A DNA stretch of 39,833 bases from Candidatus Margulisiibacteriota bacterium (GTDB lineage: Bacteria; Margulisbacteria; WOR-1; O2-12-FULL-45-9; XYB2-FULL-48-7): positions 1-39,833 of the forward strand of contig JAHJKL010000033.1 in the NCBI GenBank assembly GCA_018822365.1, in the 5' to 3' direction. The notes beneath the pieces were generated by a model that was given only the letters and a program-made list of their open reading frames with translations, was not told where the DNA came from and did not search any database. A program made the translations under genes and the position numbers. This document shows positions 37,562-39,833 of the stretch, piece by piece; position 1 is the stretch's first letter; every line of letters starts with the position of its first letter.

Positions 37562-38436
37562 CAATCGCCGAGGCGCTCGCCTGGGGGATCGCCCAACTCG
37601 CTAATTTAGAAGATCCCCGGCTGGAAGCGGAAATTCTCTTAACTAACAACCTCCAACTGACAACTGCCAACATTATTGCTCATGGAACCCAGATTATTCC
37701 CCCAAATATTTTAGACAACTTTAAACATTCAATTGCTAGACGATTAGCTCATGAGCCGACCGCTTACATTGTCGGTTATCAGCCTTTTATGGGTTTAGAT
37801 ATTAAAGTCGACCAACGGGTATTGATCCCCCGTCCGGAAACGGAACTGTTAGTGGAGAAAATATTCACCTTGTTGCCTAATCACCTAATCCCCTATTCTC
37901 CTATCATCGCCGATATTGGGACAGGGAGCGGCTGTATCGCTATTAGCCTGGCTAAATCACTTCCTAAAGCCAAGATCATAGCTATTGATCTCTCAGTGGA
38001 CGCGCTCGCCTTAGCAAAAGAAAATGCCGCCGCACATAACGCGCGAATCACTTTTCTTGAAGGGGATCTCCTCTCACCTTTAAAAGAAAAAGTCGAGCTG
38101 CTCGTCTCCAACCCTCCCTATATCCCAACCTCTGATCTGGCCGGGCTGGAACCCGACGTTAAAGATTGGGAACCAGTCAGCGCTCTTGATGGCGGCAACG
38201 ATGGGTTAGATTATATTCGCCGTCTAATTAATGACGCCCCTGTTCATCTTAATCCTGGGGGAAAGTTAATATTTGAGTTTGGGTTTGGGCAAGCTGAAGC
38301 GATTAAAACTCTCTTTGCCGCAGATAACCGCTACTCACAAGTCGAGATCTTCAACGATTATGCGGGGATACCGAGGATTGCGAAGGCGGGTATCCGCTCG
38401 GAACCTGAGAATGAATTCTCGGTTCCTCGCAAATAA
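37558..38436 (+). CDS. prmC: Release factor glutamine methyltransferase PrmC, with an altered C-terminus
   Basis: A 292-residue N5-glutamine methyltransferase acting on the GGQ motif of release factors. It shows PRPETE (91-96), the SAM loop DIGTGSGCIAISL (119-131) and the catalytic NPPY (185-188). The usual C-terminal strand DYAGIPRI-x-KAGI is followed by 13 extra residues (RSEPENEFSVPRK) encoded by a hairpin region. The DNA for that strand is repeated 196 bp downstream (38553-38589), where it is followed directly by a stop codon. This suggests that the original 3' end was separated from the gene by an insertion or duplication. Catalytic motifs are intact, so the protein is probably functional. 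Confidence 0.92.
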   Translation: MTIAEALAWGIAQLANLEDPRLEAEILLTNNLQLTTANIIAHGTQIIPPNILDNFKHSIARRLAHEPTAYIVGYQPFMGLDIKVDQRVLIPRPETELLVEKIFTLLPNHLIPYSPIIADIGTGSGCIAISLAKSLPKAKIIAIDLSVDALALAKENAAAHNARITFLEGDLLSPLKEKVELLVSNPPYIPTSDLAGLEPDVKDWEPVSALDGGNDGLDYIRRLINDAPVHLNPGGKLIFEFGFGQAEAIKTLFAADNRYSQVEIFNDYAGIPRIAKAGIRSEPENEFSVPRK

Positions 38437-38496
38437 ACAGCCAGTATTTACTATCAAATTGATATTTTTTAAGGATATCACAAATTGTGATATCCT
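38400..38496. other. Two palindromes after prmC
   Basis: The first is an interrupted hairpin at 38400-38426 (GGAACC/GGTTCC and GAGAA/TTCTC, loop TGAA) that encodes the extra C-terminal residues of PrmC. The second, at 38472-38496, is a perfect 12-bp inverted repeat around one base (AGGATATCACAA and its complement). It has a T-run upstream but none downstream, so it does not look like a terminator for prmC. An operator or repeat function is possible. Confidence 0.6.
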
Positions 38497-38552
38497 CTCC
38501 TTTGAAATACCACAAAAATATCATTGTTTTTACCGAAAACGAAGTCGCAATC

Positions 38553-38589
38553 ATTACGCGGGGATACCGAGGATAGTGAAGGCGGGTAT
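38553..38589 (+). pseudogene. Duplicated prmC 3'-end fragment
   Basis: 37 bp matching 38357-38393 at 34 positions. In the same reading it encodes H-YAGIPRIVKAGI and then a TAG stop, the expected C-terminus of a PrmC. Sequence just upstream also resembles the equivalent part of prmC more loosely. It is a remnant and not an independent gene. Repeat copy C starts only about 30 bp further on. Confidence 0.75.
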
Positions 38590-38621
38590 TTAGTTTGTCC
38601 CCTGTACGTATTTAGCTTTAT

Positions 38622-38880
38622 CGCTCTCTTTTATTGGGCTGTCCATTTTCTTTGTCTGGCCACAAAGAAAATGGACGAAAAGAAAAGGCCTAGCGCTTTT
38701 TGATTTTTCTCAAGGTAAGCAAAAAGCGCGCCCACTCTGAATTTATAAGAGGCACTTCAATAAATAAATAAAAGTAATTATCATAGGTTTTTTCGACCGG
38801 AAAAGATGGACATCTTTGTCCCCATTTGCCATGATGCATTTTATAGCCGTCTAACCTTCGATGGATTTATCATTTAGTAT
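38622..38880 (+). repeat. Structured two-hairpin repeat, copy C
   Basis: Same core as copies A, B and D: hairpin 1 arms 38641-38655 and 38662-38676 (loop CTGGCC), linker 38677-38692, hairpin 2 arms 38693-38702 and 38720-38729 (17-nt loop). Two base pairs of hairpin 2 differ from the other copies, and in both cases the opposite arm carries the matching change. The downstream block (about 38806-38878) aligns with that of copy A and contains TGCAT and TAACCTTCGATGG. The 487-nt gap between prmC and the next gene holds the prmC remnant, the palindromes and this repeat. Confidence 0.85.
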
Positions 38881-38923
38881 CATCAATCTTCAAAGGGCCC
38901 CATCAGGAATTTATATTATTTTA

Positions 38924-39235
38924 TTAATTAGAGAAATGAGAAAAATCGAAATCCCACTCATGTTTACAGTCCTTACATTTCCCATGATCGTATCCAGCAT
39001 AACAAACATCTTCAAAATCTGACCCAGTAATAATTTCTGGAATAATCTCGATGTTTTTACTTGCACATTTCGGACAAAGATTTCTTTTAACGACTTCAAT
39101 ATAATGCTTCTTAGCTATTTCCCACGGCAACATTTTTCTATAACCACTCCACCACCAAGTACAAATTATAGCAAAACCAGTCAAAACGAACGTAAGACCC
39201 AAATTAGCTATTGCCAACCAAGTTGCTAAATCCAT
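38924..39235 (-). CDS. Small membrane-anchored zinc-ribbon protein, hypothetical
   Basis: About 103 residues starting MDLATWLAIANLG. One N-terminal membrane helix (about residues 3-28) is followed by a basic segment. A cytosolic-looking domain then carries C-x-x-C (CPKC) and, about 35 residues later, C-x-x-C (CKDC), a zinc-ribbon pattern. I prefer the ATG at 39235 because a GGGGAGGGGG purine-rich Shine-Dalgarno-like stretch lies about 10 nt upstream. An ATG at 39262 would translate that stretch and overlap the preceding gene. It lies 19 bp after the 81-residue gene, so the two form a pair. AT-rich, and between inverted repeat copies C and D. Function unknown. Confidence 0.65.
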   Translation of the reverse strand: MDLATWLAIANLGLTFVLTGFAIICTWWWSGYRKMLPWEIAKKHYIEVVKRNLCPKCASKNIEIIPEIITGSDFEDVCYAGYDHGKCKDCKHEWDFDFSHFSN

Positions 39236-39254
39236 AGCTACTATCCCCCTCCCC

Positions 39255-39500
39255 TCAAACAAGCCTAATTTCTTTGTTCAATTCGTCATTGATCTGATTA
39301 TATCTATCTACTCCTAACGTAGAAATTGCGACGTTAATAATCGCCTTATAACTGTTGCTATGATCATCACATTTTTTTGATATTTTTTCTAATTCAATTG
39401 AGTTAAAGTTATTAATTAAATTCTTTTGGTATTGATTCAACAGCTCCTTCGCAATAAGTTTCCAATTTTTCATCATTTCTTTAATATTTTTTTCATCCAT
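39255..39500 (-). CDS. Small helical protein, hypothetical
   Basis: An 81-residue soluble, highly charged and predominantly helical protein with no recognised domain. AAAGGAG about 8 nt before the ATG is a good ribosome binding site. It is the first gene of a two-gene unit with the membrane zinc-ribbon protein. A short protein followed by a membrane protein in an isolated AT-rich island could be a toxin-antitoxin-like or defence-accessory pair, but nothing in the sequence proves this. Confidence 0.62.
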   Translation of the reverse strand: MDEKNIKEMMKNWKLIAKELLNQYQKNLINNFNSIELEKISKKCDDHSNSYKAIINVAISTLGVDRYNQINDELNKEIRLV

Positions 39501-39558
39501 TGAGCCACTCCTTTATTTTTTTGTCTAGCAACCAACTTCAGCTCTTTTACTGCCCACA

Positions 39559-39582
39559 TTTTACGCACAGTTAAGCGTAAAA
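39559..39582. other. Short inverted repeat upstream of the two-gene accessory unit
   Basis: An 8-bp inverted repeat (TTTTACGC and GCGTAAAA, arms 39559-39566 and 39575-39582) with an 8-nt loop lies about 60 bp upstream of the 81-residue gene. It could be an operator or part of the promoter region of the unit. No clear -10/-35 pair was identified around it. Confidence 0.4.
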
Positions 39583-39600
39583 GCAATCGAAGAAACCAAC

Positions 39601-39833
39601 AAAAGATCATCCCAACCTTCAAAATGTATCGCAATACTCATAAACAACGATATCCTTCGTTACCGGCCGAAAGAACCACCTTGAAAGCAATATTACTTAT
39701 ATTTTGAATTGTCTCGTTTAAATTCAGCGTGTTCTGCGCATTTCGCTTACATTGAGAAAAATCGAAATGCGCGAGGCCTTTTCTTTTCGTCCATTTTCTT
39801 TGTGGCCAGACAAAGAAAATGGACAGCTCAATA
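39601..39833 (-). repeat. Structured two-hairpin repeat, copy D (inverted, at the window edge)
   Basis: Reverse-oriented copy. Hairpin 2 arms are 39736-39745 and 39763-39772 (17-nt loop), the linker is 39773-39788, and hairpin 1 arms are 39789-39803 and 39810-39824 (6-nt loop). The window ends 9 bases after hairpin 1, so the upstream block is cut off. The block 39601-39655 resembles the downstream block of the other copies only loosely. The 333-nt stretch 39501-39833 holds this repeat and the short inverted repeat at 39559; I see no further gene in it. Confidence 0.8.

Follow-up and report, generated by a model that had tools for sequence, protein, structure and literature searches.

The window, a stretch of 39,833 nt that forms the entire contig C33 of a WOR-1 MAG (G000; 1.68 Mb in 88 contigs), contains two modules in which AT-rich cargo lies between copies of a repeat, here named R1. 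Module 2 consists of R1 copy C (38589–38884, + strand), a gene for a 112-aa protein (38924–39262, −), an ORF of 81 aa (39255–39500, −), and R1 copy D (39833–39581, −), which is inverted relative to C and lacks its 5′ tip because the contig ends there. The preliminary description of C and D as opposed copies that enclose two AT-rich ORFs is borne out by these coordinates and by inverted arms of 98 nt (38632–38729 and 39736–39833), which are 93% complementary, enclose 1006 nt, and constitute only the best-conserved part of R1. Module 1 consists of R1 copy A (74–367, +), a second repeat, R2 (404–610, +), situated upstream of the cargo, a gene for a 220-aa protein without a family match (650–1312, +; 34% GC), and R1 copy B (1328–1623, −). 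Copy B is inverted relative to A in the manner of C and D, and the claim of one frame common to both modules therefore holds for the R1 pairs, but not for the extra R2 in module 1.

The cargo has a GC content of 27–36% vs 47–58% in the core genes. The 112-aa protein (36% GC) has a predicted hydrophobic N-terminal helix and a C-terminal zinc-ribbon-like CxxC...CxxC motif, and its structure model is weak (pLDDT 64), with a helix and a few strands. Its ORF is supported as a gene by a 46%-identical homologue in the sister species G001 (WOR-1 RIFOXYB2_FULL_45_9, MEUD01000001.1; complete, one contig), the closest relative compared. A search of 74 genomes of the phylum finds this Zn-ribbon gene in two, with one copy in each of these species. 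In contrast, the 81-aa ORF (27% GC) is unsupported as a gene. Against Pfam, NCBIfam, PHROGs, and PADLOC, the 112-, 81-, and 220-aa proteins give weak matches at most; no plasmid match is found for the 220-aa protein and no defence match for the module 2 cargo.

Between prmC and copy C, two direct repeats of 42 nt with 88% identity, one at the prmC 3′ end (38352–38393) and the other ending at the start of C (38548–38589), flank a 154-nt insert that comprises a REP-like palindrome and an ORF6N (anti-repressor) remnant. The palindrome CGGAACCTGAGAATGAATTCTCGGTTCC, at 38394–38428, forms the end of prmC. The remnant (38450–38552, +) is 91% identical over 80 nt to G001, in which an intact ORF6N gene is located at the same place beside prmC. 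Further dispersed palindromes (AAGGTGCCAAATTGGCACCTT, GAGGTCACAATTTGcGACCTC, and GGATATCACAAATTGTGATATCC) are found at positions 1–75 and 38475–38500 of the window and at L064:5334–5840, and GGATATCACAAATTGTGATATCC lies inside the ORF6N gene of G001.

Structure and conservation of R1

In-register pairwise alignment with wider flanks delimits an R1 unit of approximately 300 nt, longer than first described, which begins some 55 nt ahead of hairpin 1 and extends to roughly 240 nt past the first base of that hairpin. The outer tip, CCTGTACGTATT in C and CCTATACGGA in A and B, whose tips are alike (GGCCTATACGGA), is followed by hairpin 1 (GTCCATTTTCTTTGT..ACAAAGAAAATGGAC), a linker (GAAAAGAAAAGGCC), hairpin 2 (GCGCATTTCG..CGAAATGCGC), and a less conserved 3′ half. 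In copy C, the tip is located at 38601, the two hairpins at approximately 38641–38676 and 38693–38730, and the 3′ half extends to about 38884. R1 is short, multicopy, and without a long ORF inside. Compared with shuffled sequences, the hairpins have z values of −5.6 to −7.1 (−5.6 for C and −6.3 for D), and compensatory changes occur at 6 of their 31 base pairs.

Among the R1 copies, the cores are 76–90% identical and the 3′ halves mostly 47–67%; the hairpin core thus looks constrained and the copies old. C and D are 89% identical in their cores and 58% in their 3′ parts and, judged by sequence, are without a recent origin as a matched pair. The copy on contig C82 (L055:1–252) departs from this pattern relative to A, the 3′ halves being 95% identical vs 86% in the hairpin core, which suggests recombination between the repeats.

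The exact hairpin pattern, searched over 85,000 species, matches in WOR-1 genomes only. Among viral contigs it has no match, and a phage origin of R1 is rejected on this ground. A literature search of partial coverage found no description of such repeats in WOR-1.

The hairpins could instead function at the RNA level, for instance by terminating transcription around foreign genes or by insulating them. The compensatory changes, which keep the hairpins, and four terminator-like sites in the module vs 0.9 expected are consistent with this explanation. However, the two main hairpins are without a U tract, R1 copies occur at gene starts, at gene ends, and beside a tRNA alike, the window has no Rfam match at the gathering score, and promoter-like sites are at chance level. 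A regulatory RNA or terminator is hence very improbable, and the repeat pair as a unit of regulation, one of two roles offered in the preliminary description, finds no support.

Copies of R1 and the related repeat R2

Searches that included an R1 covariance model give seven R1 copies in the source genome, namely A, B, C, D, C61:19581 (+), C72:31256 (+), and C82:62–244 (−). In G001, three full copies are located at 436036 (+), 794207 (+), and 1644761 (−), and a 114-nt palindrome at 1294.5 kb, which carries CCTGTACGTATT at each end, consists of two R1 tips and hairpin 1 in a head-to-head junction. Such a head-to-head double-tip palindrome is a classic form of a MITE.

R2 is composed of a hairpin (CCCCATTTCTTTG..CAAAGAAATGGGG), the segment GAAAGAAACTGC, a second hairpin, and the end AAGGCCATATTTGATTTT, and its tip in G001 is GGCCTATACGGAGGTTAC. 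Apart from module 1, R2 is found in G001 at 1644056 (+) and 794.5 kb (−) and in the source genome on contigs C48 and C22; R2 remnants lie 3′ of R1 on C72 and at 436 kb of G001, the latter recognised by eye. The R1 covariance model matches R2 on C48 (E 7e-5) and in module 1 (E 0.002), and these matches, together with tips common to both repeats, indicate that R1 and R2 are related. C48 also carries a second, partial tRNA-Asp broken by palindromic inserts (L066, approximately 1230–1400) beside an intact tRNA-Asp (732–810). At the ends of C72 and C22, R2 contains IS3-like ends (TGACCT...), possibly accompanied by a 4-bp duplication of GAAC, and the two contigs probably join through an IS3-like element.

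Inverted pairing of the repeats

Close inverted pairs exceed chance. Both pairs in the window, A/B and C/D, are convergent, and seven positions drawn at random in 1.68 Mb would include two neighbour pairs less than 1.7 kb apart with p ~0.0007, orientation left uncounted. In G001, an R2 or a remnant of it faces each of the three full R1 copies (436, 794, and 1644 kb) in convergent orientation at a distance of about 0.7 kb or less. Were three R1 and three R2 placed at random, a single pair no more than 800 nt apart would already have p = 0.009; three are seen. The opposite end of a frame is thus often R2 rather than a second R1, especially in G001.

Alternatively, mobile repeats and foreign genes could pile up independently in tolerant intergenic regions and flank each other incidentally, with no functional unit. 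These regions are indeed crowded with unrelated palindromic repeats (REP-like, ORF6N-type palindromes, and R2), and the C61 copy is solo and adjoins a gene. In the more distant G023, which has its own repeat family, one inverted pair surrounds cargo (L056, approximately 4425–6545) and four copies are single, so that solo copies account for 4 of 6 matches and the pair for 1 of 5 places. Within the genus, however, the R1/R1 and R1/R2 neighbours are convergent, with the exception of the tandem A–R2 of module 1, and the Zn-ribbon gene abuts the same R1 end in both species although the sites differ; incidental flanking is accordingly considered unlikely. Convergent pairs without cargo also exist, at 794 kb of G001, on C72, and in G025, a genome of another family, whose gene-free pair of convergent hairpin repeats measures about 490 nt. 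The genome-wide excess of inverted pairs anticipated in the preliminary description is therefore evident in the genus as close convergent pairs, and only weakly so outside it.

Cargo and sites compared between the two species

The Zn-ribbon gene is situated downstream of prmC in the source genome vs upstream of an lpxB-like gene in G001 (1644377–1644703, +), where it lies between R2 (+) and R1 (−). The two sites are non-orthologous, and in both species gene and R1 are oriented alike relative to each other, with their 3′ ends facing. The lpxB site carries module 1 with the 220-aa cargo in the source genome vs the Zn-ribbon gene and a gene for a 547-aa protein in G001, and the two lpxB sites are taken as orthologous by the sequence just before lpxB, which is common to both species. 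Likewise, the ORF6N gene or remnant common to both species marks the prmC sites as orthologous; beyond ORF6N, the G001 site holds an AT-rich gene of 98 aa (30% GC) and an R1 3′ remnant (37 nt, 81%). A DNA search of the source genome did not recover the naxE side of the prmC site. The comparison of lpxB and prmC thus gives different cargo at one site and one cargo at different sites. A simple inversion of the 37-kb lpxB–prmC block as the cause of the two places of the Zn-ribbon gene is rejected, since the immediate lpxB and prmC flanks are kept and the orientation of the gene relative to lpxB/prmC is the same in both species.

Two further sites differ between the species. The ribD–hypC site contains an AbrB/PIN-like gene pair (recognised by eye), R1, and a 90-aa gene in the source genome, and the 114-nt palindrome in G001. 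Just beyond hypC on C61, HipA_C and HIRAN genes (L053:6114–7807) match the PADLOC candidate pair PDC-M03A/B. On C72, R1 follows the gene next to uvrA and is absent at the orthologous position of G001 (498.9 kb).

Such sites could also be explained by repeats that no longer transpose and serve as old, fixed landmarks at a few permissive intergenic sites, between which the cargo is exchanged by homologous recombination. The lpxB, prmC, and ribD–hypC sites carry R1 or pieces of it in both species with different content, and the R1 copies are strongly diverged, both of which fit such anchors. Nevertheless, the presence of R1 at the C72 site in one species and its absence in the other indicate that insertions or losses do occur, and an identity of 76–90% over short cores would make homologous recombination inefficient. 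We regard fixed recombination anchors as somewhat unlikely.

Proposed composite cassettes with MITE-like ends

The reading that we prefer, with a probability of roughly one half, is that R1 and R2 form an old non-autonomous MITE-like family whose inverted pairs are the ends of composite cassettes. Each repeat would contribute an outward-facing tip (CCTRTACG...) and two subterminal hairpins without a gene, and two facing copies would form the cassette ends, between which an AT-rich gene could be carried, lost, or replaced. Beside prmC, the module 2 cassette would comprise C, the Zn-ribbon gene, the 81-aa ORF, and D. A transposase acting in trans, by recognising the tips or the hairpins, would probably mobilise the cassette, and homologous recombination between copies at occupied sites may follow later. 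The repeats and their cargo probably shift and swap together, like known gene-carrying miniature transposons. Inverted pairing beyond chance, gain or loss of R1 between two species, one cargo framed at two sites, changed cargo at one site, and a derivative in MITE form are observed directly, whereas joint movement of the pair, and transposition as its means, are what we infer.

Several observations count against composite cassettes: the copies are strongly diverged, C61 and most copies of G023 are solo, and A and R2 form a tandem in module 1. No target-site duplication is recognisable around module 1, the Zn-ribbon unit of G001, or the 114-nt palindrome, the copies being old and the outer end of D missing, and the searches yielded neither a recent R1 copy nor an autonomous element with R1 tips. 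In the source genome and G001, the tip pattern returned the known copies and a few candidate matches with one mismatch. Moreover, recombination between fixed anchors accounts nearly as well for sites that both species share but fill differently, and our confidence in the composite MITE-like cassettes is therefore moderate. The role of the pair as the unit of movement, the other role proposed for it at the outset, is favoured by pairing beyond chance and by the R1/R2 frame around the Zn-ribbon cargo elsewhere in G001, and is weakened by the solo copies, the empty pairs, the mixed R1/R2 ends, and the lack of a target duplication or transposase. The related proposal that repeats flank accessory modules agrees with the AT-rich, accessory cargo and with the different cargo at the lpxB and prmC sites of two species, except that a frame often combines R1 with R2 instead of two copies of one repeat. 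A dedicated cassette-exchange system of WOR-1, integron-like in function yet without an integron, seems quite improbable; in it, conserved inverted hairpin repeats would tag fixed positions between genes, and a recombinase that recognises hairpins would exchange individual accessory or defence genes among them.

Three WOR-1-related genomes have SIR2-like genes in the vicinity of hairpin repeats (C22:11680–13421 in L067, L057:4831–5754, and L061:1283–2383). The SIR2_2 match on C22 of the source genome has a Pfam E value of 5.6e-14, and those in G023 and G045 are weak in Pfam (0.0012 and 0.0068), with values of 1.1e-7 and 4e-12 for the PADLOC SIR2 models. If C72 and C22 join through the IS, as is presumed, the R1/R2 pair apparently does not enclose the SIR2 gene. 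The 547-aa protein of G001 has the look of a TIR-like or deoxyribosyltransferase-like effector; Pfam, PADLOC, PDB, and a structure model gave no confirmation of this identity, and the N-terminus of the model (pLDDT 45) is unusable. The link to defence is a lead rather than a result. If composite cassettes are the correct reading, the small genomes of an uncultured phylum gain and trade accessory genes even where no integrase or transposase of their own is close by, and R1/R2 frames offer a sequence handle for accessory, perhaps defence, genes in WOR-1, which the SIR2-like genes near repeats in three genomes make testable.

Comparison with known systems

REP elements with RAYT (Y1) transposases are palindromic intergenic repeats that often occur as inverted pairs, and the source genome, similarly, has Y1 transposases. 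The C63 Y1 gene (C63:2461–2808, L046) is flanked on both sides by the palindrome CGGAACCTGAGAATGAATTCTCGGTTCC and goes with it, and R1, of approximately 300 nt, lies away from this gene and from the other two Y1 genes (C34 and C85); the RAYT/REP reading of R1 is accordingly rejected. In integron cassettes, hairpin sites (attC) are located beside single accessory genes. R1 resembles them in that its hairpin sites adjoin single accessory genes that differ between genomes, but R1 is inverted around the gene, unlike the one direct-orientation site per gene of an integron. In none of the five genomes does the integron integrase IntI (TIGR02249) reach the curated cut-off of 265 bits, the highest score being 94.7, and the integron reading is thus rejected.

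R1 has the size, the copy number, the lack of a gene inside, and the inverted tips of a MITE. Similar to bacterial MITEs (PMC10969869), it is short, multicopy, non-coding, hairpin-forming, and intergenic, with the double-tip palindrome of 114 nt in G001; in contrast to typical MITEs, it is without an identified autonomous partner or a target duplication. The closest known systems are TIME-COMP (PMC4133298) and MITE-framed segments (PMC10969869). TIMEs are 262 bp long, with 38-bp Tn3 terminal repeats and target duplications of 5–6 bp, and TIME-COMPs are composites of two such Tn3-derived MITEs, of tested mobility (PMC4133298, PMC13367494). Compared with TIME-COMP, R1 has shorter known tips, strongly diverged copies, and often R2 as its opposite end, and no target duplication is seen. 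Nevertheless, in both systems two miniature repeats without a transposase, oriented alike or oppositely, frame unrelated genes of deviating GC content with no transposition genes, and such framing by two MITE-like repeats is found at A/B, at C/D, and at the Zn-ribbon unit of G001.
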